A program made the translations under genes and the position numbers. 64,000 bases of DNA, taken from assembly GCA_006384855.1 (NCBI GenBank), contig VCJN01000812.1, positions 62,001-126,000 of the forward strand. The letters are read 5' to 3'. Source of the stretch: Tetraselmis striata. Taxonomy: Eukaryota > Chlorophyta > Chlorodendrophyceae > Chlorodendrales > Chlorodendraceae. Under the pieces are notes generated by a model. That model searched no databases. It saw only the letters and a program-made list of their open reading frames with translations, and had not been told where the DNA came from. Positions 15,076-62,036 of the stretch are shown in pieces (positions within the stretch are counted from its first letter, which is position 1; each line of letters opens with the position of its first letter).

Positions 15076-15858
15076 GGCGGGGCGCTGTGCGAAGGTGCGC
15101 GTACTAAAGCGTACGTACGCGAGACGCTGGCAGCCGGGCGGCGGCGGCATGCTGCCACCTGTGCCGGCACCCGGCCAGGAGGAGCTAAGCTTGGCCAGGA
15201 GCGACAGGATCTCACACCCCCAAATTTATCAACGTGTGCGGTTCCGGCGTTGCTGCCGGGGTGTACAGCCGGGCGGCTCTGAGGCCGGGCAGCTTGTAGG
15301 TAGCGCGGGCCGATTATGCGCACTGCTCCGCTTGTTTGCCGTACTCAAACGCGGTACTTGTTACTTTCAGCATACCAGCACTCTTTCCGGCACCTGTATT
15401 ACTCCGGCGCGAGGGCTGTTCGCGACAACCTAGCACGTAGCTACGCAGCCTACAATAGTGCGTCCACTGCCCGTTGAGCGGGTCCTGCGGGCACTTGCAG
15501 CGCCTCTGGAGGACGATGCGTACTATGTGGAGGAGAAGCAGCGGGCGGCGTAGTCGTCGCTGGAGAACGCGCGTGGTATCATCGTCTTCCCACGCGGAAC
15601 GAGGGGTACGAGCACGAACATCGACGCGCTACGTGTACTCGTATCATCCGTATCCACCGCGTATCATAGAATACTATTAACTACTAGCTAAAAACGCGCT
15701 GCTGCGGTTCCGGTTGCTCTCGCGACGCGCGAGGTGATGCCCGTCCGGGCGCGTAAACATAACCCTGCCCTGGCGAAAAGAACCCACGACGCGGGCACCG
15801 GGGTTCGTCTGCTTAAATGTAGGCTTTTTCCTTCCCAGTACTTTGCGTGCATTCTCTT
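15076..15858. promoter_or_regulatory. Upstream region of the giant gene, no gene seen
   Basis: This 783-bp stretch lies between the predicted start of the giant gene and the Copia element. It must hold that gene's 5' leader and proximal promoter unless the Copia insertion displaced it. I see no clear TATA box or coding sequence. Copia inserted 783 bp upstream of the ATG, close enough to influence transcription. Confidence 0.4.
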
Positions 15859-16340
15859 TGTCGGATGGGATTGTCGAAGTGATGGCTGAGTGGCACTGTC
15901 ACTGATGGGGGGAGAGTCGGCGAGAGTCGGCGTGCACGCGTCGAATCACGTCGAGTGCCAGCAAGCAAGGTGCGAGCTGGAAAGGCAAAGGGCTGCTATG
16001 AGCCGTGGGCGATGGACGATAGGTAGTCGCTGTCGCCGTGGTGATGGCTGAGTGGCACTGTCACGAGAGAGAAAGGGTGAGTCGGAATATTTCTGGAAAA
16101 GCAGTTGACTGAATTACAAGGAGCCAAGGCTGGCAATTTATACCAGCCGACTAGGTGTCACTTAGAATGGACACCTCTCCGTCTAAGAAGGCCAAGTGGC
16201 AAAGATGCCTAGGTGCCATGCTTTGGTGCCGTACTGCTGCCATAAGGTCCAAATTAGGCACAGGTACGGCAGCCAGAAAAATGCGGATTTCACAGAGAGA
16301 AAAAGCGGATTCAGGGTACCGGGGTACCCTGGGTCCAACA
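15859..16340 (-). repeat. Copia 3' LTR (element reads on the minus strand)
   Basis: 482 bp, TGTCGG...CCAACA, about 99% identical to the copy at 30078-30559. CTCTT precedes it. Confidence 0.95.
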
Positions 16341-16347
16341 CCCCTCC

Positions 16348-19300
16348 TCATCCTGTGGAATCCCGCGGGCGCAAGACTGATGGCGGCAGAGGCGCAACAC
16401 GGGGCTCCTCGGATGACCCCATCAGGAAAGCGCGGAAACGAAGAAAGGTAGTCAGCGGCAGCGCCTTAGTGAAGAAATCGGCGAGCTGGTCTGCGGTAGG
16501 CGTGTAGTGCATGTCGATGACGCCATCTTGGCAGAGTTGGGCTGCATACTGAAACTTGAGGTCAATGTGGCGTTGCGCGCTTGTAATCATACCATGTTTC
16601 ACCTGAACGATGCACGCTTGATTGTCCTCGCATACCCGCACTGGGTCAGTGGTGGGGTGGTGGAGCTGGCGCAGAAGAACGCGAATAAACGCCAGACATT
16701 TGCATGCCATGCAGAGCGCCACGAACTCCGCCTCGGCAGTAGACAGGGCCACGCTCTTCTGAACTTGCGCGCGGTAGGCGACTGGGGTGCCATGCACCAG
16801 GGCAAGATAGCCGGTAGTGGAGCGGCGTTTGGGCACGAAGGTTGCCCAGTCAGCGTCCACAAAAAAGAGGAAGTCAGGTGCCTCGTTGTCCAGTTGCTTC
16901 CGGAAAATGAGGCCATGGTTGGGGGTGCCCTTGAGGTAGCGCAGCACTGATACGGCGATCTGCCAGTGACGCTCGGTGGGGGACGCCATGTAGGCGCACA
17001 GGCGGCCGACCACGAACGCAATGTCCGGGCGTGATGCCACAGCCAGCCAGATAAGGCTACCAACAAGATTGGGATAGGGAAAGAGTTTGGTGTCGAGGGG
17101 CGTGCATGTAGGGTCATGAAAATCGGTATCCGGTGTGCAGGGTAGGCGGCGAGGCGCGCATGCCGCCATGTTGAAGGTAGTCAAGATGTCGTTGATGTAC
17201 TTCTCCTGATGGAGGTGGAGCACGCCTCCCGGCTTGCGATCAATGGCCATGCCAAGAAGCCAGGTGCATAGGCCGTCAGTAGGTGCATCAAACGTAGAGA
17301 AGAGAGAAGTCTGAAAACGCTCCCGGATGTCGGACGACGGGGAGGCAGCCAGCATGATGTCATCGACGTAGACGCATAGGATGGCCAGCAGCGATTTATC
17401 GACTGCGAGCAGCGTCCATACGCCTGGATCGCACTCGGAGCTGACGAAGCCGAAGTCACGGAGAAAAGAAGAAAAGCGCAGAAACCACGCCTTGGGTGCC
17501 TGCGGCAGGCCATAGAGTGCTTTAACGAGTTTCCAAGCCTGATTTTTGCGGCCGTAGCCGGGGGGGGGGGGGGGGGGGGGGGGTAGACGTAGACATCTTC
17601 ATCGAGGTTAGCGTTGAGGAAAGCACAGGTGACGTCGAACTGGTACAGCTCCCAGTCAAGTTGAACTGCGAGAGCAATAGTGGTGCGCAAGGCGATGAAG
17701 CTGACGACTGGGGCATAGGTCTTAGTGTCATCATAGTTCTCGCCGGCAGTAAGTTGATCGCCGCGGACAACCACTCTGGCCTTGCGCTTGATGAGGTTGC
17801 CATCCTTGTCTTGTTTCTCCGCAAAGGCCCACGCCGTCTGTATGATGATTGTTGATGGGTTGTCACAGCGAAGGTCAGGAATGCTGATCCAAACAAAGGT
17901 CTCCATCTTGGTGATAGAGGCGATCTCTCGGTCCATGGACTGTTTCCAGTCATCGGGGTGATTGCTGGAGATGGCCTCCTTGTAGTTGCGCGGCGCCTTG
18001 GACACGCGGACAGTGGGTGCTGGCAGGGCGAGGGCGGCCATCTGCGCCGGGTAGGGGCGCACAACCTCCGCGATGGCGGATGCTACCAGCTTGGGGTGGT
18101 AGTCGCTAAGGTCGACATAAGGAGAAGATATGTGCGCTGATCCACTGGAGTGAGGAGTTGGCAGTGCTGTGGCGTCCCCCACCTGATGACGCGGAAGATA
18201 CGTCCCTTCTGGCTGCGGAGGTGGGGGCCCTCCTGCGCGGAGGCAAGCGCCGCTGACGGCGGCATGGGTGGCGGCATGGGAGGTGGCGCGTGGGGCCCCT
18301 CCTGCTGGTCCAAGGGTTGCGGCTCATCCATCAGGTGGTCATCGTCGGGGAGCTGGAAGACTGGCATAGAGAGCGCCGGTGTGCTGGAGAAGGGTCGTGT
18401 CACCTCATCAAAGATGACATCGCGTGTAACCGTTTCGCGCCTGGTAGCCGGGTTGTATATGCGGTAGCCGGCGGAGTCCTCATGGTGGCCAACGTAGATG
18501 CCCGGCCAGGATTTAGGTGTCATTTTTCCCTTGGCTGCCCGCATAGTCACAGGTATGTTGACCCAGGCCACACAGCCGAAAACATGCAGGTTGGCGAGGT
18601 CGGGCTTGCGACCGGTCATCAGCGTGTAAGGTATTGCGTTGACGGACGAGCTCCACTGGCGGTTGCAGAGATAGACGGCGTGAAGATACGCCCAGTCCCA
18701 GAAGGTGCGGTCGAGGCCGGCGTGGAGAAGCGTGGCTTGGGCACACTCACCGATAGTGCGGAAAGAGCGCTCCGCCAGGCCTGCCTGATGATGAGAGTGG
18801 GATGCGGTAAACTCCAGCGCGATGTTGAGGTCTGCACATGCTTGACGAAACGGAGAGCCGGTATAAACCGCGCTGCGATCGGCACGTATGCGTTGAACGG
18901 TGTGACCCATGCCGAGAACCGCCGCATGAAGTTGATGGACGGCGCGGACGGCCTCGTCCTTGGTGCGCATGGTGATCGCTACCTTTACTCCAGTGTAGGA
19001 ATCCACCGCGCCGAAAACATGCTGCGCGCCAGTCCTTGACCGACGGACAAGGTCCCTTCCAGTCGTCGATGACCACGAGCATGTATGGTGCCTCCGCGCG
19101 TGGGGAGGGCTGACGGTTGACTGACTGCTAGTGGGATTTGGCCTGAATGCACGCTGGGCATATGGCCTCCGGGGCAGATCCGAGTTTCGGGATGCCGATG
19201 GCATGTTGTTGGGTGAGCTCCATGTGGCGCGCGCAGCGATGACCAAGTCGAAGATGCCACAGGGAGTAGGAGGCCGTTGGAGATGGCAGTGCCATGACCC

Positions 19301-19740
19301 CATGAGACGGATCGCGGATGGGAAGGAGCTTGATGCCGTACAGGCCTGTGGTGCCGGGGTAGGGCTGAAGGTGGATGACTGCACCATCTGGGGTGATCAT
19401 GCTGTTGAGGAGGCGGCTGAAGTAGAAAGAGTAGCCCTGCTTGCTGAGTTGATGGGTGCTGAGGAGGCGGCTGATGTTGGTGAGACCGACACTGGAGGTG
19501 ATGTCAGGAGTATGGTAACAGTCTCGTGCCACAATGGTATGTGGCCTGCCTGTGATGTCTAGTGTTGGCGCCAGCGTGGTGCCGATGCCGACTGCCGGTT
19601 GCCCGAAACCGCCCACCAGAAATTGCTCCGCCGCAGGAATGTCCATGTAGTAGATGTAGTCGGTGCGGTGGGCATTGACGTGAGAGGATGCTCCCGAGTC
19701 GATGAGTACCCATGCTTCGCCATCGCTGGTGATGAGGGTG
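16348..19740 (-). other. Copia pol: protease, integrase, reverse transcriptase, RNase H
   Basis: In minus-strand order: a protease with the DSG motif (WVLIDSGASSHV, near 19700); the GAG-pre-integrase zinc-binding region (LWHLRLGHR...CPACIQAK, about 19280-19130); the integrase core (FGAVDSYTGVKVAI, about 18990, then IRADRSAVYTG and HQAGLAERSFRT); reverse transcriptase (NYDDTKTYAPVVSFIALR, YQFDVTCAFLNANL, about 17740-17590); and RNase H (SRPDIAFVVGRL...VALSTAEAEFVAL, about 17040-16720). This is the standard Ty1/copia order. The region is broken by several interruptions, and a long G run lies inside it near 17563-17583. Confidence 0.9.
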
Positions 19741-19789
19741 CCGTATGACGTGTGGCAGACAGTGATGACGGCTGGGGAAGGGGCGGCGC

Positions 19790-20760
19790 CCGAGACAGCC
19801 TTGATGTAGTTGCGCATGACGTTGAGATCGATGACCCCGCCGAGAAGTTTGCGCAGTGTCGCCTCAGAAAGGTGAGATGTGGGCAGATCATCCAAGGTGA
19901 AGCCCATGGCGCGAGCGCGTAGAGCTGCAGGGGGCTCGCACCATCTGCCGTTGTCCGCCCAGGACCAGGGGCCATCATGTTCGTAGACCATGCCAGTGCC
20001 CGGCTGACCGTTGGTTTGCATGCGAAAAGCGTATGAGCCGGGGCGGGCGACGAACTTCGGAAAGTAGTCAGTTGTCACCACTGGAGTAAAGTGGGGGAAT
20101 TCGGATATACAGAGGTCCCACGCGCAGGGGCCGGGGTCGGTGAGCTCGATGGCGTTGATGTTGTTGATGTAGTCCTGAACGTCGGTTTGCGAAGCGATAT
20201 TGGTCCACAGGAGGGTGTCGCGGTGAGCCGCCGAGCCGCAGGCGGTCGCACGCATGCTGTTGCCGGTGCCAAGTGAGGAGAGTATCTCAGGGAAGTCCAG
20301 CGCGCCTGGAACATTCTCCACAATGTAGCGCACCGGTGTGGGCTGTGTAGTCAGGTAGAAACGGATGAAACTGATGACGGAAGCAAAGGCCCGAGAGCGA
20401 TGGTCCTGCCAGCCAAGGCGTGAGCCAGCGCGCGACCATGGTTGACACGGTGGGCCTGACACGATGAGGGTGACCGGGCGCAGGGTCTCCAGCTCCGCGA
20501 TAGTGATGTTGTTGACGTCCATGGGGGTCCTGGCATGACAGTCCTGAAATGCTGAAGGGGGCAGACGGTCCGGGTACTTGTCGCTGATGACATGTAGGCG
20601 ATGCGTCCACATAGTACGAGCCTCGGGCGACGGGTCGGCGCCGGTGATCTTGTGGATGGTGAAGCCGTATTCTACCAGAGCCTCTACTTCAGATGCCGAT
20701 GGGCCATGGCATGGCGAAAAGAGATGGTCGATGACCAGAGAGGTTGGCAGCGGGAGGATT
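19790..20760 (-). other. Cytosine-5 DNA methyltransferase domain inside the Copia polyprotein
   Basis: Read on the minus strand, the C5-methyltransferase motifs occur in the family's order. Motif I-like VIDHLFSPCHG (about 20745-20690) would bind S-adenosylmethionine. Motif IV is SGPPCQPWSRAG, with the catalytic Pro-Cys (about 20460). Motif VI is ENVPG (about 20325), motif VIII-like SAAHRDTLLWTN (about 20230), and a motif X-like LGGVIDLNVMRNYI (about 19850-19805) closes it. The SAAHR...W.N spacing and the short N-terminal part recall the DNMT3 group more than bacterial Dcm. It lies after gag and before the protease, in frame with both neighbours over this stretch. Known role of the family: methylation of cytosine C5 in DNA. 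Whether this copy ever acted is unknown. Confidence 0.85.
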
Positions 20761-21766
20761 GGCGCAGCGGTGAGGAGCGGTAGTGTTGGTGGCGGGTCGC
20801 CACGTAGGGCGCCTTGCTCCGCATGAAGAATGTGGGATGCCAACGCCGCCGAGGCGGGAAATGTGGGTGAAGTGAGGCATAGGGGTTGGGCTGGGGTGGG
20901 GACGGGGTGGGGACGTTGCCAGTTGATGTCGAATAGGTGGATGGGGGGATCGAGGGAGTAGGGATGGGAGTAAACGTTCCAGCGGGGGGGGGGGGGGGGT
21001 GTCGGGGGTATCGAAGATTGGGAAGGCGTCGGGGTGAGGGCGGGAGCGGTGAACATGCCATGAGTGTGAGAACGGGGACTCGAAGTCGGCATAAGAGTCG
21101 GAGTAGGGGACGTGCCAGGGGTCATGTATGTCATCCTCCGCGCTGTCCTCGCCCTCCCCCTCCTGTCACTGTGAGATTCAGATGTGACGTAAATGTGCCC
21201 TACTGGTGACGAACGACGACATACGGGGACGATACGGGACGGACGAGGGACGTGGATTTCATACCCAGTAGCGACGACTATCGCGCGCGACCTGTAAAGT
21301 ACTATATGAATTTCTCGTTTCCATAATTTCATCAAATTGATATGCGCACGCGGGCTCGCGTGTCGCCCGCCGACGCGGAGCACCCGGGCTAAGTACAGGC
21401 GGATGTACGCACTCATTGCACATCGCCGCACATCGCTGACCGCACATCGCTGACCGCTGACCCCGCGGTGTGCCGCGATGTGCGGCACGACGGGCGGAGG
21501 TGTGGGCGGATGTAGGTGGTACGGTAGGTGGTAGGCGGTAGGTGGTGTTCGTAGGTGCGCGTTTTAATGCAGCCGCCCTAACTGCTGATGATTGTGTAAC
21601 GCCCCAGCACGCGCATGAAGTACGGGGTCGCCTCACGGTCACCGCCGCTCACCGTTGAATCAAGCGCGGACAGCTGCGCACTCGCATCTGTGTTGCCTGC
21701 CGGTGGTGGGTTACATCCACCCCAACTCTCAACCCCCCCCCCCGCCCCCCGCGCGCGGCAGCAGGC

Positions 21767-22183
21767 ATGCCGGCAAAGGGATGGATAGCGAGTGTGTCGA
21801 AGGATGGCGTGTACACATGCAAGCACTGCCACGGCATCGTGACGGGTAGTAGTGAAAGGACGGCGCGAGAGCGGCACTTCCGGAAATACCCGAACTGTAG
21901 CCACTCGTTGAAGCGTGCGGCTAAGTTGCGCCGCAAGGCCGCCTTATCACAAGCAGCAGCAGCAGGGGCGGCAGCAGCAGCAGCAGCAACAGCAGCAACA
22001 AGCGCGGCAGCAGGAGTAGCTGCAGCCGTCGGAAACGGCCCGCCGGCGCCGGTCTCGGACGACGGCGGCTCGAAGGTGGACGATGTGATGGGCGTGGGGG
22101 AGGACCCCGTTGGCGAAGACGGTATGGACATCGACGCGCCTGCGCGGCCGCCGGCGGGCGTCGAACCCGCGATGAGGGCGTGA
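21767..22183 (+). CDS. BED-like zinc-finger protein of the CACTA transposon
   Basis: 138 codons from ATG 21767. The N-terminal third contains YTCKHCHGIVTG followed by RERHFRKYPNC, a C-x2-C...H-x-C arrangement like BED fingers that bind DNA in transposases. A basic stretch (LKRAAKLRRKAAL) follows, then an alanine run encoded by a GCA/GCN microsatellite (about 21950-22020) and an acidic tail. Copy 2 (58411-58827) has the same protein with about three substitutions. The Tudor-like ORF overlaps its stop in another frame, so the two may be joined by an unseen intron. Inferred role: recognition of the transposon ends. Confidence 0.55.
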   Translation: MPAKGWIASVSKDGVYTCKHCHGIVTGSSERTARERHFRKYPNCSHSLKRAAKLRRKAALSQAAAAGAAAAAAATAATSAAAGVAAAVGNGPPAPVSDDGGSKVDDVMGVGEDPVGEDGMDIDAPARPPAGVEPAMRA

Positions 22184-22365
22184 TATGGAAAGGCGATCCC
22201 GGCGACTTCTACATGAAGGTCATCGCCAAGAAGTTCCGGGGAGTATGGCACTACGGCGTGATAACCGGCGTCGTTACCGAGTGGGTGTTGGAGGACTACG
22301 GCGGGGCGACCCAGTGGCGCGCTGTTTTCGAGGACGGTGACATTGTGGACCTTCTGCGTTCAGAG
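22180..22365 (+). CDS. Tudor/agenet-like chromatin-reader segment of the CACTA transposon
   Basis: The reading DFYMKVIAKKFRGVWHYG, then TQWRAVFEDGDIVDLLRSE, has the K-F-G-x-W-Y-G...W-x-V-x-[FY]-EDGD-x-x-D-L-x-x-E pattern common in Tudor/agenet-like domains of plant and algal chromatin proteins and mobile elements. It stops at a good donor (GAG|GTGAGT, 22365/22366). A likely acceptor lies near 22450, before VVEAMAAAQEHP. No clear ATG of its own is seen, so it is probably an internal exon. The same segment is at 58824-59009. Confidence 0.5.
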
Positions 22366-22626
22366 GTGAGTGGGCCCGGCCTGCGTGCTGGTGGCACCAC
22401 TCAACTGCGGTTGTATGGAATCACACGCACCCACCCGGTCGGCGTGGCAGGTTGTGGAGGCTATGGCGGCTGCCCAGGAGCACCCCACTGTGGATGCGGA
22501 CGGGGAGGCTCGCTTGGTAACCGTCCATCAAGGCGATGACTTGTCCAGTGAATCACGCGCCTTGCCCGGCGTGCGTTCAACACAACCCGGCTGGCGGAGG
22601 CCAAGCAGAACACTGGCTGCCATGGC

Positions 22627-23165
22627 GTGTGCCATGTGCATGTGGTCCTGGGCTATGTCAGCATGATCAACCTCTTCCCCCTCGCGCCGTTCCACCTGTT
22701 TTTTTTTGGCTTGGGAAGGGACTTCTGGAGGAAATTTGTCACCGTGCAGGGCCACATTGGATTCCGAGCTATGAAGCAGGAAGACCGGCGCCAGGCTTTA
22801 GTCCCGATACCCAGCAACTTTGAACGCGGGTTGCGCCCTTCGTTTGCAGTGTCCAAGAATCGAAAGGTAACCCCCCCCCCCCCCCCCCGGGCGTGGGCGT
22901 GGGCGTGGGCGTGGGCGTGACGGCATTCCCCTCCATGACTGCAGGGTCAGGCAAGGTGACGGTGCAGTCCGGCTGGGTCATGGAGGACTGCTTGCACCAC
23001 ATGGAAACGTTTTCCATTCTTAACGCCGGTCCGCTGCTCGAGGAGGCCCGGGTGAAGGCGATCATGACCGAGAAGGAGCTTCGCGTCCCTAGGCGGTGCT
23101 TGGGCACATGTACAAGCGCATGCAAGGAGCTGCGTGGTTCGTCACGCGGTGGGGGTTGCAGAATG
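22627..23165 (+). CDS. Transposase-like ORF of the CACTA element
   Basis: The frame from 22627 reads VLGYVSMINLFPLAP then FHLFFFGLGRDFWRKFV, a P-x-H-L...LG...FW pattern like the middle of Tnp2-type and related transposases; I cannot name catalytic residues with certainty. A run of 18 C begins just after the sequence AAG|GTAA (22867). Possible splicing from there to an acceptor before GTGACGGTGCAGTCC would remove it. In copy 2 the run is 19 C and the frame reads straight through (59271-59816). The frame changes again near 23090 (MYKRMQGAAWFVTRWGL continues in another frame). Exon structure is therefore uncertain, or both copies are damaged. Confidence 0.4.
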
Positions 23166-23243
23166 TGGTGACGGAGGAGGACGGCCCCGAGCGCAAGGCG
23201 CAGGTGAACGCGCTCACTAGGGAGGGGAGGACTCGATACCCCG

Positions 23244-23410
23244 CGCGGCGCCAAGGCGCGGCGGCCGGGGCAGCGCGGCGCCAAGGCGCGGCGGCCGGGG
23301 CAGCGCGGCGCCAAGGCGCGGCGGCCGGGGCAGCGCGGCGCCAAGGCGCGGCGGCCGGGGCAGCGCGGCGCCAAGGCGCGGCGGCCGGGGCAGCGCGGCG
23401 CCAAGACAGC
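23244..23410 (+). repeat. 30-bp GC-rich minisatellite in CACTA copy 1
   Basis: About five copies of a 30-bp unit (gcgcggcgccaaggcgcggc plus ggccggggca). In one frame each unit encodes a ten-residue RRQGAAAGAA repeat. Copy 2 of the transposon has about eleven such units plus 31-bp variants. Confidence 0.95.
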
Positions 23411-24362
23411 GCATACAGCGGAATCGGCGGAAAGGGATGCATTACAAGCTGTGGACGGCAGCCGCTGAAAACTATGCGGTCATGCCGCAACAACCCCAGC
23501 ACTGGCTTCTGGATACCTCTGATCTGGCTGACGGCGGCGGGCTGCGGGATGCAGGGCCGCATGACTGAGGTGGCGGTGCTGGTGAGCCCGCAGAGTCTGC
23601 ATGCGGCGGAGGCGGCGCAGCCGCATAGGCACTAGACAATGCTCTGAAGCGAGCCCCAATTGTCTGCCCAGCGCCTGCCCCAATGTAACGCACCAGCTTG
23701 GCAGCAATTGGCAGCTCTTTTGCCCCCCCCCCCCTCCACCCCACAGACACACTACCAATACCAGTTTCTCATCCCGGCGGGCAGTTGATGCGTATACCCA
23801 GGCTTGTGCGTACGCGGTGCGGGGGGGGGGGGGGGGGGGGGGATCACTATAGCTAAGCTAGTGATGTGAGATATGAGTGCAGCAACAGATATTGTGCAAG
23901 ATATAATACGATGGCATGCAAGCGGGTCCCCGCTCTTCCACAATCATTGGCCCTTCTCCCTCTTGCCCCGCCCCCGGTGCCCTTTAGCTGCTCTCAGCAT
24001 CCCGAGTGGGATGGGCGGGGCAGCGGTTGCTACCGAGTGAGGCGTAGCATCGTTTGCAGTAGCAACGCAGCCTTTCCGGTGTGACGCCGCCTGGATGTAA
24101 CCCAGCAGTACGCGCAAAGTGCAAGTGCAAGCTGCTGATGGCGGGGATCCCGCGCGGGGGGGGGGGGGGGGGGGGGGGGGGGCAGCGGCTGTGGGATAGG
24201 CGCGGCAGCGGTTGCTACAGAGTGAGGCGTCGCATTGTTTGCAGTAGCAACGCAGCCTTTCCGGTTGCATAGTGTGACGCAGCCTGGATGTAACCCAGCA
24301 GTACGCGCAAAGTGCAAGTGTTACACGTCCGTGTGCCCCACCCAATGACATTGCGCCCGACC

Positions 24363-25064
24363 TCACTGACGGCATGTCTCGCTCTCCTTCAGCTCCTGGG
24401 CCGTCCGCCGCCTCACCCTGCGCACCCTACCAGCCGCGCGTGCCTTCTCGGAAGCCTCACACACGGCGGCGCGAGTCGCGTCGTGGAACGCGTCCCTGAC
24501 ATGGCGGAACTCCGCCCTCTTCGTGGCCGTGGTCGGGCAGGGGACTGCCCGCTGATGGGTCGCCATGCATGGGTACTTGGGGCCGCACAAAGCCGGGGTG
24601 CCGTCGCAGCAACACTCCCAGTCCGTCCGTTGGCCGCAGTCCACGCATGACGGGCGTCCGGCCAGGACACGCACATGATAGTGCATGTGGCCGCCTCCCG
24701 CCACTGCTCGTAGTGCTCCGGTCAACATGGCGACGAGCAAGTCGGCATGTCCCGCAGGTGGCTGCGGGGCGGGTGGCGCGAGCGCAGCCTCGCTCGCCTC
24801 GACAACCCCCTCAGCCCGATCAGTCGCCTCGACCACGGCCTCCTCCGCCTCCTGACGCGGCGCACCAGGCGCATCATCGTCGCCTGGCAGGGCGTCCCCC
24901 CCCGCAACGGCGCCGTCGGCGGTGGCCGACGCCGTCGTGGCGGGGTGTTGTGAGGAGGTGGCCCTAGACATAGGTGGGGCCGGCACCGCCATGTGTTGCT
25001 CCACATGCGGTGCGGTTCCTGACGCGACAGCTCCGTCGCACCAGTACCGGCGCCGGCACCCCAC
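24363..25064 (-). CDS. Conserved minus-strand Cys-rich ORF in CACTA copy 1
   Basis: 233 codons, preserved with few changes in copy 2 (61335-62036). The first half is Ala/Pro/Glu-rich low complexity. The second half has RPSCVDCGQRTDWECC, then ALCGPKYPCMATHQR, a C-x2-C...C...C...C...H cluster. It recalls the Cys-rich tail of PiggyBac-like transposases (CxxC...C...LC..CF..YH) but I cannot confirm that. A basic tail (VRRVRRRTAQELKE) follows. Its start and any upstream exon are unclear. It may be the element's second protein, reading toward the transposase ORF. Confidence 0.4.
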   Translation of the reverse strand: MGCRRRYWCDGAVASGTAPHVEQHMAVPAPPMSRATSSQHPATTASATADGAVAGGDALPGDDDAPGAPRQEAEEAVVEATDRAEGVVEASEAALAPPAPQPPAGHADLLVAMLTGALRAVAGGGHMHYHVRVLAGRPSCVDCGQRTDWECCCDGTPALCGPKYPCMATHQRAVPCPTTATKRAEFRHVRDAFHDATRAAVCEASEKARAAGRVRRVRRRTAQELKESETCRQ

Positions 25065-25292
25065 GCACGCCTGCTGGGCTTACCACCAACCGGCATGTTT
25101 CCTTTGGGAGGCGGTTCATCCGCGTCGGAGGTGAGCGGCGGTGCCTGTGTGGGTGTGGATACTGCCCGGCCATTAGGGCTCCCGCCGCCTGTCGCTCCGC
25201 CGACCCACGCCGCCGCGTGTGCTGCGCCCCGCATAGTCGCCTCGAATATAATATACATGACGCGGGGACGGGGGGGGATTCGTGCGTTTCGT

Positions 25293-25595
25293 ATGTCGGC
25301 GGAAAGGCGTGCGAAGCTGCGGCTGGCGAAGGTGGTGGAAGTAAGCGTGGCGGCGTCGGCGGCGTATTACCGTGCGTGCATGCGTGCGCAACCCCGCGGC
25401 AGCAAGCGCCGGACTCGGCGTGTGCCAGCGGCAGAGCTGCGAAGCCATGGACACGGTACGGGATGCCAAGTCTGGCTAAGCAACTGCCGAGGCTGGCGGC
25501 TTAACCCCCATGTCCGGCGGTTGAGGGACGGAAAGTGCGTAGAAGTTGATCGGGAAAGCGGGCATATAAGCCTGGCTGTGCTAGGTTCCTATTAA
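25293..25595 (+). CDS. Small basic ORF conserved in both CACTA copies
   Basis: About 100 codons from ATG 25293 (MSAERRAKLRLAKVVE...), Arg/Ala-rich, ending LAVLGSY. The same ORF at 62265-62567 differs at about one residue. No family recognised. Conservation between young copies is weak evidence for coding. Confidence 0.25.
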   Translation: MSAERRAKLRLAKVVEVSVAASAAYYRACMRAQPRGSKRRTRRVPAAELRSHGHGTGCQVWLSNCRGWRLNPHVRRLRDGKCVEVDRESGHISLAVLGSY

Positions 25596-25722
25596 GTAAT
25601 GGCGGTTTGTGCTAAGTAATTCTTAGGGGTAGACCATGCAGCGCAGGTAGGGGGCGGTATAAATGAGGCCGGGCACATATACTGCTCCACGAAACGACAC
25701 TGTCGCACGTGTTGAATAGACG

Positions 25723-25756
<34 letters not shown>

Positions 25757-26040
25757 CCGGGTCGGCCCGCCGGGTCGGCCCGCCGACCCGCCACGGCATG
25801 TAATATTTGTCATGCATCGCCGGGGTATGTGTGAGTGGATGCCCCGCCGCCACATCCCCCCCCCACCCCCCCCCCCCCCCCCATTTACACTTGTGCACTC
25901 ATAAAGTTTGGGCTGGTTTCGGAGCAATACATGTACGTATGTATATACATACAATGGAACGTAGGACCTGCGCGGAAAGAGGGGGGGCTGGCGGAATGCG
26001 TTGGGGGTGCGTAGAGTAGCGTGTTGGTGAGATTCGGGGT

Positions 26041-26770
26041 GCATCGGACGCCGGATGCCCATCCACCCAGCGTAAAAGACGCCTACGTAATATTCACACT
26101 ATATATATTCACACGCAAATGTGTGAAAACCGGACATTCCGTGCCGGATGGGTGGGAATACGGCGTCCGATGCAGCCAAAACCCCAGCAACACGCTATTC
26201 TGTGCACCGCCAATGCACTCCGCCAGCACCGCCACATTCTCCGTCGATTTCGAAAACGCCTTCACATTGTCCACCGCTAATTGCAATTGCCACCGTGTAA
26301 TGTTGTCACGATGTGCGCACACAACAACACTTACTACCGGTTCCGACGCGGATGGAGGCGAGGCTTGCGGAGTGCGTTGGGGGTGCGTAGAGTAGCGTGC
26401 TGCAAATAATTGGGGTGCATCGGACGCCGGATGCCCATCCACCCGGCGTAAAAGACGCGTAATATTCACACTGCTTTATTAACCCACAAATGTGTGAAAA
26501 CCGGACATTCCGTGCCGGATGGGTGGGAATACGGCGTCCGATGCAGCCAAGACCCCAGCAACACGCTATTCTGTGCACCGCCAATGCACTCCGCCAGCAC
26601 CGCCTCATTCTCTGTCGATTTCGAAAACGCCTTCACATTATCCACCGCTAATAATTGCAATTGCCACCGTGTAATGTTGTCACGATGTGCGCACACAACA
26701 ACACTTACTAGCGCGCTACCGGTTCCGACGCGGATGGAGGCGAGGCTTGCGGAGTGCACTTGCGGTGCAC
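26041..26770 (+). repeat. Two 376-bp hairpin-bearing tandem units in CACTA copy 1
   Basis: Units begin at 26041 and 26417 (GCATCGGACGCC...). Each starts with an imperfect inverted repeat of about 32 bp per arm (GCATCGGACGCC ... GGCGTCCGATGC) around a 40-60-bp loop that holds a second pair, TTCACAC/GTGTGAA. The rest of each unit is unique sequence conserved between units. The copy at the right edge has at least three units. Confidence 0.9.
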
Positions 26771-27159
26771 AGACTAGCGGGAGACTAGACCCATTGTCGC
26801 TTATTTACAAGCACGGGCGGTGCTGCCAGACCTGATCGTCTACGGCCGATATAATATTCACACTATATTAACATCGGTGCACACCGCCGCACACCGCCGC
26901 ACACCGCCGCACACCGCCGCACAACGCTGCGCGCGCACATTCGTCGCACACATTATCCCGGATTCACTCGCCGTATCCATTACGCCGTGCTACTTCAACA
27001 ATAAACATTGCGAAATTACACCGACACAATGCCGCACCGACTAGCTCTTGACAATACGTGCATATAAATAGTAGTGGCGCGCTGCTCCTCGCCTCCGATG
27101 TGTCGTTGACTGCTGCGGAAGGCGGTCGTCGACTGGGTGTTAGTTTCTCCACCTCGGCC

Positions 27160-27830
27160 GCCCCCCCCCCCCCCCCCCCCACCCCCCCCCCGCCCCCCCT
27201 TCACCGCTCACAGCGCCATGGCCGACCTCGCCCCCCCGGGCAAAAGTGGGCGGCGAGCCTTGTTGTCTCGCGTGTCCGCGCCGCCGGCATCGAGGAGGAC
27301 GAGAAAGACATGAGGAAACCCGTGACAAGGTGGGCGCGCAACAAAACACTCCATCCTCCGCATTAGCACGCACCCACTCGTGGCTAACTTGTGCCGCGCG
27401 CAGGTTCGTCCGGGAGCGCCGTAAGGCCCACCTCAACGCCAAGGCTTCCACAGTGCCAGCGGCGCAACTCGTGGTGGCCGAGGAGGCCGCATCCTCAGCC
27501 GCTTAAAGGCGAAACGATTGTGGCTTGTTGTGGGTGTCTGGGCACAGGGGGCGTCCCGACGCCAAGGTAAGGAAGCTCATGGCGGCGTCGTCGACGGCAC
27601 AGCCTCCCGGGGTGGTGAAGACACTGACGGATGACAAGAAGCGGAAGAGGCCAGTGAAGAAACGCCGAGGTAAGAAACTGACGGTCGCGGAGTCGGAGGC
27701 GGAGTCGGAGGCGCAGGCGGAGGCGGAGGCGGAGGCGGAGGCGGAGGCGGAGGCGGAGGCAGCGAGATCGTCGAAGCGGAGGGTCCCCCGGGCACGCAAG
27801 AACAAGAACAAGCAGTAGCCCCCGCCCCCT
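27160..27830 (+). other. Right part of CACTA copy 1 with short basic/acidic reading frames
   Basis: One frame reads GIEEDEKDMRKPVTR, a donor (AG|GTGGGC), then after an acceptor near 27404 RFVRERRKAHLNAKAS to a stop at 27507. Further right a frame (27567-27818) encodes a Lys/Arg-rich then Glu/Ala-rich tail, with GGCGGA repeats, ending RRVPRARKNKNKQ. These look like pieces of a nuclear basic protein. Start codon and connections are unresolved, and long C and G runs interrupt the region. Confidence 0.25.
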
Positions 27831-28519
27831 TTACCCATCCCCCCCCCCCCCCCCCCCCCCCCAACGCGGGAGCGGCTGGCGGCGAGGGGGGGGGGGGGGG
27901 GGGGGCGGGCGTGGTCCCCCCGCCCCCGCCCCCCCCCCCCCCCCCCCGGGCCACATCCCCCGATGGCAGCTGTCGCGAATATTGTAATTCAAACATTCTT
28001 CGGCAAACCGCTGCCTGCCCCCGCCCTCCCCCTCGCGAATATTTATGTAACGTGAGCACTCTTTGGCAAAACATGGCAGCCAAACCGCCCATCTGATGAC
28101 CTTTGATCGGACGGCTGGCAGGCCCGATCAGCAGTACTAGTACTACAAATTCCCCAGTGTTACCAAGTATGTACGGCTGCGATTTGCGCTCCCATGTACT
28201 AATAGTCGTAGTTATCCACTGGACGACTAGGGTTCGTACTCGATACCCGGTACCGGCGTAATAAATATATCGCGTACTACCCGGTACTACACGGACAACC
28301 TTGTACCTTGTACGTCAGTGCCATGTACGCTTCACCGGGCTGGTACGACTACCAGAATGATGACAAAAAGGATTTATCGCCCGCCGGCAATAACGCCGGA
28401 TGTACTCGCACGTAACTGGATGGACGTGCCGCCACCAGCAGCAGCCTTCACGGATAAATAATAGTCGCTAGTAGTAGTGCTTCGTCACCTGTATGTCACA
28501 TCTGAATCTCACAGTGTGT

Positions 28520-30000
28520 GCTCCGGTGTCCGCCCCTCCTGGGGCGGTAGTGTTGCAGGTGAGCATGATAGGCAGGCTGATGTGGTGTTGTGCTGATGGG
28601 GACACTCCCACGAACGGGTAGGCCTCCTGGTGTCCCGTCGGCCGCTGGGTGAAGGTGTCGCTGGCCTGCTGATGACCCGGGTGCTGGGTGATGTCCAGCC
28701 GGGGAGACGAAGCCGACCGGCTGCTGACGACGCTGGATGCCGTCGTTGCCGCCCTGGTTTGTCCAATGCTGCTGCCGCTGGGGCCTGTCCTGATTGTTGC
28801 GGTTGTCGTTGTAGAAAGGCTGGCCTGGCGGTGCCCGATGGCGGTAGTTGTCGCGCGGGTGGTGGCCATAGTTGGTGTTGACGCGACGCTCCGCAGGCGC
28901 GCGCTGATGGCGGTCATAGCGAGGGTTGGTCATGGTGCTGGTCGGCGTGGTGTCATCCAGGATACGCAAGCCATTGGCATGGCGCCTGGCCACACACTGC
29001 TGCTGGGTATGGCCCGGACGGTCACACCGTCTGCAGACAACGCTGGGCCCGGTGGTGTGCTGCGGGTCCCTGGGGCTGTAGGAATTAATGAGGTTTGGCG
29101 GGCACGCGCGGACGCGCTGCTGACGCTGACGCTTGCGCGCCTCCATGTTCTGTCCGGCGCTGATGATGGTCGCCAGCTTCTCGTTGACAGTGGCCGCCGA
29201 GGTGGTGGTGTCGACGATATGATCGTAGTCTGGGTGAAGGCCTGGGATGAGGTAGTTGGCAGCCACGTACTCGAAGGTCCACTGGCCATGTGCCTTGTTC
29301 AGCAGATTCCAGAGGTTCTGGTAGCGACGAACATACACCTGAACTGGCTCATTCGGGAGCTGGCCCGCTGTGATCTCTTCCTCCAAGCGCTTACGCTCCT
29401 CCATGGCTGAGCCCTGGAGCTCAGTAAGAAGAGCCTTCCATGCGGTGTATCCACACTTCCTGGAATCCATGCTGATGCTGTTGACGATGGCCAGTGCCAT
29501 GGGATAATGGGCTGTTGCGTGGCGTAGGGCGGCCAGAAGGATCATTTGCTCCTGACGGGTGCCTTTGCCCTTGGTGGTGTCCAAGTAGCCAGCGCTGCCG
29601 AGAGCGATCTTGATGGCTTTAGCGTTGTCTCGTGTAGAGATGGCGTTGTCCCAGATGGGGACGTTCTTGAGGTCGAGTGTCGGCTTCACCGCAGCTGGCT
29701 TGATATGCTGGACGACCTCGGAGTCATCGTCTGACGCCCCGTCCATGCTGAAGGCGTCGTCAGAACTGGAATCATCACGTAAGTCAGGAGGTGGTGGGGC
29801 GTGGCCAGGGTCGGTCTTGATCGCACTCTGCCGAGCCAGATTGGCCAGGGGGGTGTTCATCATGCCGGTGTTGATGCTGGTAGACATTGCGAAGGGATGG
29901 CGCACTTGTGCTTGAGGATGTATAACTGTAGGGGTGGGCGGGTGGGAAGAAAAACTCGTCGCACGGCGCCGTCGACCGTCGAAAGTTGTCGAGGGTCGAG
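28520..30000 (-). other. Copia gag region
   Basis: Minus-strand reading gives a Ty1/copia Gag: an N-terminal acidic stretch rich in D and S, a helical core resembling the UBN2/retrotran_gag family (TAWKALLTELQG, VQVYVRRYQNLWNLL), and a zinc knuckle CRRCDRPGHTQQQC near 29025. It would form the virus-like particle and bind RNA. The nested CACTA element interrupts the element just downstream. Confidence 0.85.
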
Positions 30001-30077
30001 ATACACGCAGGTTGAAGCCTCTGGCAGGCGTCGAGCACGGGGCAAGACGTCGAACCAAAGGAGAGGGCCCAAAAACC

Positions 30078-30559
30078 TGTCGGATGGGATTGTCGAAGTG
30101 ATGGCTGAGTGGCACTGTCACTGATGGGGGGAGAGTCGGCGAGAGTCGGCGTGCACGCGTCGAATCACGTCGAGTGCCAGCAAGCAAGGTGCGAGCTGGA
30201 AAGGCAAAGGGCTGCTATGAGCCGTGGGCGATGGACGATAGATAGTCGCTGTCGCCGTGGTGATGGCTGAGTGGCACTGTCACGAGAGAGAAAGGGTGAG
30301 TCGGAATATTTCTGGAAAAGCAGTTGACTGAATTACAAGGAGCCGAGGCTGGCAATTTATACCAGCCGACTAGGTGTCACTTAGAATGGACACCTCTCCG
30401 TCTAAGAAGGCCAACTGGCAAAGATGCCTAGGTGCCATGCTTTGGTGCCGTACTGCTGCCATAAGGTCCAAATTAGGCACAGGTACGGCAGCCAGAAAAA
30501 TGCGGATTTCACAGAGAGAAAAAGCGGATTCAGGGTACCGGAGTACCCTGGGTCCAACA
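30078..30559 (-). repeat. Copia 5' LTR
   Basis: Same 482-bp sequence as 15859-16340 with about 4 substitutions. CTCTT follows it at 30560-30564. Confidence 0.95.
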
Positions 30560-32009
30560 CTCTTGACGCTCTCCCTGCTGTAACCAAAAAGTACACGCGG
30601 GCACCGGCGAGTAGTTTCCACCGCGGTCACGAGAACCACGTCCGCAGTACGAACGTTGCCTGCGTCGTGACGGGGGTCGCATGAAACTCGCCCCAAAATA
30701 ATTGTTCAAGAATCGCTCACATTGCGGTGCACCACTACCTGCTCTTACCGACGACCGCGGCCAACTGCCAGCTCGGCATCGACCCCGTGGCCAGTGCCGA
30801 ATCGCAGACATGTTGGGATACCGCAGCCCACTTGGACGCCCGCGTTGCGGTGACGGCCACCTCTCGCCTCGCCGAATCTTTCGGAGTCAGCCTCGGACGG
30901 GATTATCCGGGCGACACTAGTTTATTTCCTCCGCGAGCCATATTCCGCCACCATGGTGACGCCCATCGCAGCATTTTCAGCAGCTGAAACGCTGCCGGTA
31001 GACTAGTTCTAGGTACTGCTCCGACTCCTCATGCCGATCTCGCCGGGTGCGTATGACCCAACTATAGGTGGAGCGCCTCGAGAGCTGGCGCCGTGCAGGT
31101 GCTGCAAGGCACGCCGGTGTGTACGCCACCACGTACGGCGAGGCCTGATCAGCCGAGGGACCGCCTGCCCGGTAAGTTCGTCCGAATGAGCGTACGCATC
31201 GCGATAGTGCGTGGCCCGGCAGTACGAGGGTACCTAGGCTGCCCTCAAAGGTTTAGGTTACGTTGTAGACAACGGCGCCCGCTTTTAACCGTAGCTGGTT
31301 CACCTGGGTGTACGCCGCGGCGTGTACGCAGTTGCGCTCGTCGCAGCGTCATCAGCAGGGTCAGTGATCCACTGCCGGTAAGCAAGCTGGTTTTGGATGT
31401 TTTTCGACCCCCGTGCCGATATCCGCGGGTGCCTCAGCCCGACGCATAGGTGGGGTGAAACAAGAACTAGCGCCTCGCAGGTCCTGCGAGGCACGCCGGC
31501 GTGTATGCGCCGCATACCTGGGTCCGCCGAGTGCGCGCAATACGCATCGCGATCGTGCGTGTCGCGGCTGTGCGAAGCAATAATCGCAGAGTAAACTTCG
31601 TCCAAGCGCGTACTGGTACTAGTACGGCTGTACGCATCGCCATCGTGCAGCGTGGCGCGCTGATAGCAGTACGAGTTTCCTCCGATTATTGCTGTCTCTG
31701 CAGAGGTTTAATCCTTAAGTTACGCCGTAGCCCACGGCGCGCGAAATAGAACCACCCGCTGGTCCAGCCAGGTGTACGCCGGCGTGTGCGCAGTGCCGCA
31801 GTCGCGCCAATCGCAGCGTCATCAGCAACTGAACCGCTGTCGGCAAGCTAGTTCAACGTACAGCTCCAACCCCTCATACCGATCTCGCCGGGTCCGTATG
31901 ACCAACGCATAGGCGGAGCGCGGCGAAAACTAGCTCCGTGCAGGCTCTGCACGGCTCGCCGGCGTGTACGCGCAGCGTACGACCGGTTGCACTCAATTGA
32001 GACCCTCTG
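30560..32009. repeat. Diverged repeat region between Copia and Gypsy, no gene
   Basis: Three degenerate copies of a 0.4-0.5-kb unit are visible. They are anchored by ATCGCAGC.TCATCAGCA...CCGSTAAGCWAG (near 30965, 31340, 31810) and by CCGATMTCGCCGGGT and GGCGTGTACGC motifs. A related motif, TACGCATCGCGATCGTGCGTGGC, recurs near 31193, 31543 and 31633, and again to the right of the Gypsy element near 42923. So Gypsy inserted into an older repeat array. No credible ORF. Confidence 0.6.
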
Positions 32010-61334: not shown

Positions 61335-62036
61335 TCACTGACGGCATGTCTCGCTCTCCTTCAGCTCCTGGGCCGTCCGCCGCCTCACCCTGCGCACCCT
61401 ACCAGCCGCGCGTGCCTTCTCGGAAGCCTCACACACGGCGGCGCGAGTCGCGTCGTGGAACGCGTCCCTGACATGGCGGAACTCCGCCCTCACCGTGGCC
61501 GTGGTCGGGCAGGGGACTGCCCGCTGATGGGTCGCCATGCATGGGTACTTGGGGCCGCACAAAGCCGGGGTGCCGTCGCAGCAACACTCCCAGTCCGTCC
61601 GTTGGCCGCAGTCCACGCATGACGGGCGTCCGGCCAGGACACGCACATGATAGTGCATGTGGCCGCCTCCCGCCACTGCTCGTAGTGCTCCGGTCAACAT
61701 GGCGACGAGCAAGTCGGCATGTCCCGCAGGTGGCTGCGGGGCGGGTGGCGCGAGCGCAGCCTCGCTCGCCTCGACAACCCCCTCAGCCCGATCAGTCGCC
61801 TCGACCACGGCCTCCTCCGCCTCCTGACGCGGCGCACCAGGCGCCTCATCGTCGCCTGGCAGGGCGTCCCCCCCCGCAACGGCGCCGTCGGCGGTGGCCG
61901 ACGCCGTCGTGGCGGGGTGTTGTGAGGAGGTGGCCCTAGACATAGGTGGGGCCGGCACCGCCATGTGTTGCTCCACATTCGGTGCGGTTCCTGACGCGAC
62001 AGCTCCGTCGCACCAGTACCGGCGCCGGCACCCCAC
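61335..62036 (-). CDS. Conserved minus-strand Cys-rich ORF, CACTA copy 2
   Basis: Same 233-codon ORF as 24363-25064, with a few substitutions (for example H to N and K to V) and the CVDCGQRTDWECC cluster intact. Confidence 0.4.
   Translation of the reverse strand: MGCRRRYWCDGAVASGTAPNVEQHMAVPAPPMSRATSSQHPATTASATADGAVAGGDALPGDDEAPGAPRQEAEEAVVEATDRAEGVVEASEAALAPPAPQPPAGHADLLVAMLTGALRAVAGGGHMHYHVRVLAGRPSCVDCGQRTDWECCCDGTPALCGPKYPCMATHQRAVPCPTTATVRAEFRHVRDAFHDATRAAVCEASEKARAAGRVRRVRRRTAQELKESETCRQ

Follow-up and report, generated by a model that had tools for sequence, protein, structure and literature searches.

Retrotransposons only rarely carry DNA methyltransferases (DNMTs). The closest described systems are those of de Mendoza et al., who in 2018 reported DNMTs in long interspersed nuclear elements (LINEs) and DIRS elements of Symbiodinium and in a Gypsy element of Klebsormidium nitens, and stated that the Copia elements of Symbiodinium are without them (PMC5890265). 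A 2025 paper places DNMT3s in "LTR Copia and DIRS" elements in one sentence that cites the 2018 work, and sets the ChloroDNMTs of chlorophytes and charophytes apart as a lineage of their own (PMC12344493); in its part on the MMETSP green algae, a 2023 survey found no DNMT3 identifiable (PMC9998398). Here, we analyzed a window, that is, the whole stretch of 64,000 nucleotides at positions 62001 to 126000 of contig C640 (VCJN01000812.1) in the 224-Mb genome of Tetraselmis striata, in which a Ty1/Copia long terminal repeat (LTR) retrotransposon on the minus strand contains a DNMT domain. A preliminary description, made from the letters of the window alone, had proposed such a domain in a Copia element of a chlorophyte-type genome, and the host indeed belongs to the Chlorophyta (Chlorodendrophyceae). 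Its suggestion that the capture may be new stands in part: capture by LINE, DIRS, and Gypsy elements was published in 2018 (PMC5890265) and Copia was mentioned in 2025 (PMC12344493), while literature searches, followed through their listings and selected passages and not covering subscription papers, most preprints, or Repbase, yielded no description of a DNMT-bearing Copia element in a chlorophyte. In T. striata, the domain has a defined place in the polyprotein, lies in a single frame (families A to D), is retained across families, keeps its catalytic motifs, and is constrained in families A and B. We consider it rather probable that, in several Copia families of this alga, the DNMT is a part of Gag-Pol that is active, packaged, and acts de novo on the element's cDNA.

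DNMT domains in five Copia families

A search of the T. striata genome with the window DNMT returned at least 128 matches (a lower bound, with 125 of 519 candidates scored), the first 22 of which were full length and 92 to 100% identical to the query; in addition, the 34 database proteins that matched it were all jgi/Tetstr1 models, the best at 86% over the whole query and others at 94 to 100% over parts. Three copies of this family, designated family A, join gag, DNMT, protease, integrase, and reverse transcriptase (RT) in one uninterrupted frame of 2162, 2130, and 2085 amino acids (aa) (L061, L062, and L063), and their LTR pairs are 100, 99.8, and 100% identical, respectively. In L061, Pfam located gag_pre-integrs at residues 1177 to 1240, rve at 1255 to 1352 (29.2 bits, under the cutoff of 32.6), SH3 at 1412 to 1485, and RVT_2 at 1669 to 1900. 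The order gag-protease-integrase-RT, with the integrase preceding an RVT_2-type RT, and the presence of a DSGA protease motif identify these elements as Copia. Among the family A RT loci listed (matches at ≥75% identity, with the halves of one RT merged), 51 of 72 had a same-strand DNMT match 0.5 to 5 kb upstream, as did 20 of the 21 loci with frames of ≥600 aa. Thus, the domain is typical of this family, and a chance insertion in one copy, which the preliminary description had considered as the opposite outcome, is contradicted by copies on other contigs and in at least five Copia families.

These five divergent families (A to E) all carry a DNMT in the T. striata genome. Searching the genome for PF00145 and RVT_2 led to families B, C, and D, which are represented by L064 (2299 aa), L066 (2483 aa), and L068 (>2000 aa of a 2147-aa frame), respectively; in families A to D, the DNMT lies between the zinc knuckle and the protease. 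Family E is known from match tables alone, with the DNMT position given relative to the RT only: the DNMT is upstream on the same strand at 13 of 13 RT loci, the RT is 42% identical to that of family A, and frames of 2164 and 2152 aa occur on contigs C193 and C1860. Among the distinct RT loci listed, 34 had frames of ≥1600 aa; at 32 of these, a DNMT match on the contig had the same frame length, RT and DNMT thus sharing one open frame, and the remaining two had a same-contig DNMT match in a shorter frame.

Prominent among the RT matches listed is another Copia family, the frames of which are 1561 aa long. One copy of this DNMT-free family (L069, 4.5 kb) contained Pol_BBD, integrase, and RT, and neither Pfam nor tblastn matched a DNMT in it. 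The RT of the DNMT-free family is 48 to 50% identical to those of families B, C, and D and 38% identical to that of family A, which in turn is 35 to 38% identical to those of B, C, and D. By this distance, taken with no outgroup, the DNMT-free family is closer to B to D than A is, suggesting either loss of the domain there or separate captures. The 1561-aa family also forms multicopy clusters on single contigs (C776, C1230, C440, C805, C1137, C1303, C1776, and C2881), which might be centromere markers; unlike this clustered family, the DNMT-bearing Copia copies are mostly dispersed.

Motifs and identity of the methyltransferase domain

The five motifs named in the preliminary description were all located in a single frame on the minus strand between 19821 and 20723, with the protease motif DSGASSH after them, and the assignment to PF00145 was borne out as well (E = 1.3e-9, 38.4 bits against a curated cutoff of 22). 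The domain and its motifs, the latter located by motif position, are as follows.

19785 to 20738, minus strand: C5-cytosine DNA methyltransferase domain, DNMT3-like by profile and fold comparison, 318 aa (P0036; PF00145)
20703 to 20723, minus strand: LFSPCHG motif
20433 to 20459, minus strand: motif IV, SGPPCQPWS, holding the catalytic cysteine
20304 to 20318, minus strand: motif VI, ENVPG
20199 to 20234, minus strand: motif VIII, SAAHRDTLLWTN, which the profile aligns with SAAHRARYFWGN of DNMT3A
19821 to 19844, minus strand: motif X, LGGVIDLN (also by profile)

Because the PF00145 score lies above the curated cutoff and the genome itself holds the many matches counted above, the match is beyond chance; a chance motif match is ruled out by Pfam, selection, and the further copies. 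Residues P97 and C98 and residues E141, N142, and V143 are invariant columns in an alignment of families A to D with the DNMT of a LINE (see below). The PF00145 cutoff was passed by families A, B, and C, the family D DNMT had no Pfam match at 1e-3, and NCBIfam TIGR00675 matched all five DNMT domains from transposable elements (TEs), each below its cutoff of 100.65 bits. In a profile comparison with PDB chains, DNMT3A ranked above DNMT2, whose chains appeared from E = 4e-8 onward, and DNMT3 heads the listed fold matches of the predicted structure, with DNMT3 rows 18 to 23% identical in the fold alignment. Both the profile and the fold ranking place DNMT3 first, suggesting a DNMT3-like domain, which is very probably catalytically active as a C5-cytosine methyltransferase.

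Purifying selection and possible module exchange

The ratio of nonsynonymous to synonymous divergence (dN/dS) of the DNMT was estimated by the Nei-Gojobori method from pairs with dS of ≥0.05; such pairs are nonindependent, and the copies, being best matches, are biased toward intact ones. In family A, in which 21 of 29 copies were stop-free, the median dN/dS was 0.255 (0.137 to 0.530; 87 of 210 pairs), and in family B, with 12 distinct stop-free copies after removal of two duplicate loci, it was 0.189 (0.161 to 0.215; 32 of 66 pairs). These medians indicate that the DNMT is under purifying selection in both families, and neutrality was rejected in the seven pairs tested (Fisher P from 2.5e-3 to 1e-10). 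In eight B pairs, the DNMT ratio was the lowest of three neighboring regions; this comparison is confined to B pairs, the upstream and downstream ratios of A being unreliable where misaligned frames inflate dS.

Moreover, the synonymous divergence of the B DNMT was 0.17 to 0.20, about twice the 0.06 to 0.10 of its neighbors, with the exception of one pair; this doubling concerns L064 and L048 versus L059, L060, and L065. Identity between the lineages B1 and B2 was 91.7 to 93.7% in the DNMT, 92.3% in one preceding stretch, and ≥94.7% in the other stretches compared. The doubled divergence and the lower B1-B2 identity hint that the DNMT module may have been exchanged between B lineages by recombination.

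A nonautonomous offshoot

At least 41 genome matches, 59 to 71% identical to the query, stop at DNMT residue 205 to 207 and lie in frames of up to 1237 aa. The proteins of this offshoot, designated N (e.g., P0018 and P0021), consist by eye of gag, a truncated DNMT, and a partial pol. Motif IV was readable in 10 of 15 offshoot proteins, with leucine replacing the catalytic cysteine in six and the cysteine kept in four, among them P0026, a mosaic protein whose pol is fuller. A match to the ENV site was obtained in seven, all with QN instead of EN. N branches within family A (support, 85/66 in the tree of TE DNMTs and 94/82 in the enlarged tree described below) and multiplies despite having no sound DNMT itself, which would imply either supply in trans or dispensability.

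Structure and condition of the element in the window

The element spans 15859 to 30559 on the minus strand and is complete from LTR to LTR. Besides the DNMT, its parts are as follows, read 5' to 3'.

30560 to 30564, unstranded: target-site duplication CTCTT, right copy
30078 to 30559, minus strand: 5' LTR, TGTTGG...CCGACA read on the minus strand (pair alignment)
28520 to 29887, minus strand: gag part of the polyprotein, 456 stop-free codons up to the nested transposon
28994 to 29035, minus strand: zinc knuckle CRRCDRPGHTQQQC, nucleocapsid (motif position)
21167 to 28516, unstranded: CACTA-like DNA transposon nested in the element, inverted ends CACTGTGAGATTCAGATGTGAC
19680 to 19700, minus strand: aspartic protease motif DSGASSH (motif position)
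19134 to 19325, minus strand: gag_pre-integrs, PF13976 (Pfam)
18395 to 19024, minus strand: integrase core PF00665, under its cutoff, and SH3_retrovirus PF25597 (Pfam)
17137 to 17870, minus strand: reverse transcriptase PF07727 (RVT_2), frame broken in the window copy (Pfam)
16348 to 17355, minus strand: RT end and a region resembling, by eye, the RNase H C terminus of the L061 polyprotein
15859 to 16340, minus strand: 3' LTR (pair alignment)
15854 to 15858, unstranded: target-site duplication CTCTT, left copy

The LTRs are 482 nt each, and the aligned pair (483 nt, the final base being shared flank) has four mismatches, corresponding to 99.2% identity; the LTR pair and the 5-bp target duplication are those of a Ty1/Copia element. 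From 5' to 3', the element runs from gag with its CCHC knuckle through the nested transposon, the DNMT, the protease motif, gag_pre-integrs, and integrase/SH3 to the RT. PF00145 and gag_pre-integrs (E = 2.7e-8) share one 786-aa open reading frame (ORF), and the integrase (27.6 bits against the Pfam cutoff of 32.6), SH3, and RVT_2 matches lie in further frames, the downstream reading frame being split over several ORFs. By eye, the final stretch of the gag part is out of frame relative to L061 and reads differently, and a Pfam scan of the ORF at 16348 to 17355 gave no match.

The nested transposon, 7350 bp long and inserted in the gag-DNMT linker, has 22-nt inverted ends starting with CACTG and is flanked by a TGT duplication (21164 to 21166 and 28517 to 28519), which we take to be the pattern of CACTA transposons; seven of its ORFs were scanned, with no Pfam match and no recognizable transposase domain. 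The preliminary description had set the DNMT between gag and protease of a young Copia element. This placement is correct for the element, but in the window copy gag is severed from the DNMT by the nested transposon; likewise, the LTR identity agrees with a young element, but the copy is not intact. The window copy thus belongs to family A and, although its insertion was recent, is dead, being interrupted and frame-broken.

Related methyltransferases in a LINE and in metagenomes

Contig C2687 of the same genome (G000) contains a LINE-like 3505-aa open frame with RT, PCIF1_WW, DNMT, and RNase H, two pieces of which matched RVT_1 RT (L071) and PCIF1_WW, DNMT, and RNase_H (L070); its DNMT is 37% identical to that of family A. 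Two methyltransferase-type domains, PCIF1_WW and DNMT, stand here between RT and RNase H, and contigs C653, C2172, and C596 have PF00145 scores equal to that of this LINE. Among 5.8 billion proteins searched with a profile, 302 matched; apart from those of T. striata, the best 120 of these included six ENA metagenome proteins (E = 1e-71 to 4e-45), the best match from any further source having an E value of 4e-10. In P0043, the DNMT is followed by the Copia domain Pol_BBD, P0041 runs by eye into an RNase H-like start, and the LINE DNMT is grouped with P0044, P0047, P0050, and P0052 in the tree of TE DNMTs. A protein search with a query extended by a linker, to widen the length window, returned three proteins, so that the absence of such DNMTs from other named species is weak evidence, and a scan of IMG/VR with the DNMT profile gave 403 pattern stretches, none of which was confirmed.

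Phylogenetic trees were composed of TE DNMTs and database proteins, without DNMT3, DNMT1, or plant references. In the TE-DNMT tree, the LINE group was supported at 99/99 and families B, C, and D with P0043 and P0046 at 90/88, and A with N stood apart. In an enlarged tree with 14 additional lower-scoring database proteins (among those named, six bacterial and one from Trichinella), all TE DNMTs fell on one side (100/99), and support for the group of B, C, D, and P0043 fell to 81/63. A single Copia DNMT clade was not rejected (p-AU, 0.335), and both one capture and several are therefore compatible with the data. A tentative reading, possible but somewhat short of probable, is that a green-algal DNMT3-like lineage resides mainly in retrotransposons and has moved between element classes, having entered Copia at least twice (A; B-C-D) and a LINE once, in a host group in whose transcriptomes no DNMT3 was identifiable in the 2023 survey (PMC9998398). 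If this is true, de novo methyltransferases would be kept in these algae by transposons rather than by hosts, and transposons might carry them in hosts whose own enzymes seem to be lost.

Other methyltransferase sequences were encountered in the genome. Very similar ORFs of ∼325 aa encode C5 methyltransferases of bacterial/viral type, some frame-disturbed (L031 to L036, L038 to L042, and L047; contigs C1993, C776, C1647, C2337, C355, C1455, C2272, C1230, C493, and C1496); those inspected have EQSAN in the usual ENV position, and L031 is CpG rich, with an observed/expected (o/e) ratio of 1.31. Contigs C776 and C1230 hold both such ORFs and many Copia copies of the 1561-aa type. As close kin of the TE DNMTs, the stand-alone ORFs L031 to L036 were rejected, with no tblastn match to five TE DNMT references at 1e-10. 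Contig C2009 of G000 (L046) carries, by eye, a bacterial-looking DNA methylase and a neighbor gene, probably contamination. On C11, C726, and C1756 (L043 to L045), fragments of host-like C5 methyltransferases, split into exons and showing the motifs GFCCQSFS and ENVANL, are candidates for native DNMTs of the alga.

CpG composition

The CpG o/e ratio was 0.85 to 0.92 in family A, 0.83 to 0.86 in B, 0.77 in C, and 0.88 in D, compared with 0.75 to 0.79 in the LINE pieces, 0.84 in the DNMT-free Copia, 0.92 in the window, and 0.79 and 0.98 in the window flanks. Transitions per site at CpG relative to non-CpG positions were 0.95 in the A DNMT, 1.18 over 3 kb of A, and 1.85 in B (12 versus 16 sites), and the corresponding values for transversions were 0.87, 0.39, and 0.43 (the latter two from four sites each). 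With CpG transversions rarer (0.39 and 0.43), CpG transitions are raised relative to transversions, on counts too small to decide. The CpG data are thus ambiguous, neither demonstrating nor excluding methylation; SymbioDIRS elements are likewise without CpG depletion (PMC5890265).

Proposed role and alternatives

According to the reading we favor, the DNMT would be packaged as part of Gag-Pol into the virus-like particle, where the neighboring zinc knuckle may tether it to nucleic acid and where it would methylate, de novo, cytosines in the double-stranded cDNA of the element or in its new insertion; the methylated incoming DNA might then pass as self, or stay quiet until conditions suit. A packaged enzyme meeting new cDNA was proposed in 2018 for SymbioDIRS-Dnmt3 (PMC5890265). 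Several observations weigh against this reading. The spread to dozens of copies of N, with its truncated and mostly motif-broken DNMT, together with the abundance of the DNMT-free Copia family, indicates that an active DNMT in cis is unnecessary for transposition. Moreover, 21 of the 72 family A RT loci listed are without a nearby DNMT; nearly all are short decayed frames (123 to 767 aa), two (C397 and C707) have a same-strand DNMT match at a greater distance on their contig, and, the scored DNMT matches being a lower bound, some may be missed ones. In addition, stretch 197 to 267 of the predicted structure has a pLDDT of <50, neither CpG o/e nor CpG transitions give a clear methylation mark in family A, and the SymbioLINE and KnitGypsy DNMTs produced no methylation in a yeast test, judged inconclusive there (PMC5890265).

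Among the alternatives, action in trans, directed at the host genome or at every genomic copy and amounting to self-limitation or rewritten host silencing, rather than action on replicating cDNA, seems unlikely. Dozens of DNMT-bearing copies could increase the cellular DNMT dose, and an influence on the epigenome of the host has been suggested in Symbiodinium, the genome of which is mostly CG methylated (PMC5890265), but the window, with its CpG o/e of 0.92 over 64 kb, is undepleted, unlike what long and heavy CG methylation would leave, and the position inside Gag-Pol would favor a role in the particle. It is more doubtful still that the domain, like DNMT2, methylates RNA, be it a tRNA-like substrate or the genomic RNA of the element. 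The PDB profile matches do include DNMT2 chains, and the related LINE couples its DNMT with a PCIF1_WW domain, PCIF1 being a cap-RNA methyltransferase; the profile and fold rankings nevertheless favor DNMT3, though neither addresses the substrate. We regard as improbable, too, a nucleic acid-binding or structural spacer of which the chemistry is no longer relevant: the multiplication of N would agree with it, whereas neither the cysteine nor ENV varies among five diverged domains, that of the LINE included, and dN/dS in the eight B pairs is lower in the DNMT than in the flanking polyprotein. Finally, the broken and interrupted state of the window copy might suggest a chance passenger or an assembly artefact, which single long frames on many contigs, five families, dN/dS far below 1, and metagenome relatives make exceedingly unlikely. 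With near-identical young copies, five DNMT-bearing families, DNMT-free Copia elements, and a decaying offshoot in one genome, the question of why retrotransposons should carry DNA methyltransferases becomes testable by comparison inside that genome.

Comparison with known systems

The catalytic domains of DNMT3A and DNMT3B are the best profile and fold match of the T. striata domain, with the regions of motifs VIII and X aligning; the T. striata domain, however, is 18 to 23% identical to the DNMT3 rows of the fold alignment, is embedded in Gag-Pol, and is without the ADD and PWWP companions that belong to DNMT3A and DNMT3B. SymbioDIRS-Dnmt3 is alike in having a DNMT3-type domain within a retrotransposon polyprotein, in multiple copies and under purifying selection, and two of its copies methylate CG de novo in yeast; it differs as a DIRS element with a tyrosine recombinase and with DNMT and RT in one ORF (PMC5890265), whereas the T. 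striata elements are Ty1/Copia, with a protease and an rve integrase, the DNMT ahead of the protease, and a chlorophyte host. KnitGypsy-Dnmt3 of K. nitens shares the green lineage and a DNMT3-related domain in Pol with Ka/Ks of <0.2, but has a Gypsy domain composition, DIRS-like repeats, and a streptophyte host (PMC5890265). The backbone of the T. striata elements is neither DIRS nor Gypsy, with a Copia-type RVT_2 and the integrase before the RT. SymbioLINE-Dnmt resembles the C2687 LINE as a DNMT-carrying LINE, but has its DNMT, of an orphan lineage, in ORF1 (PMC5890265), whereas the C2687 LINE holds all domains in one 3505-aa frame and its DNMT is related to the Copia ones. The 2025 sentence likewise concerns LTR Copia elements with DNMT3, but within that sentence streptophytes and dinoflagellates are named, with no chlorophyte and no architecture (PMC12344493), and the 2018 paper cited there calls its LTR element Gypsy (PMC5890265). 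The T. striata elements thus extend the rare retrotransposon habit of carrying a DNMT, both their host group and their element class being new for it.
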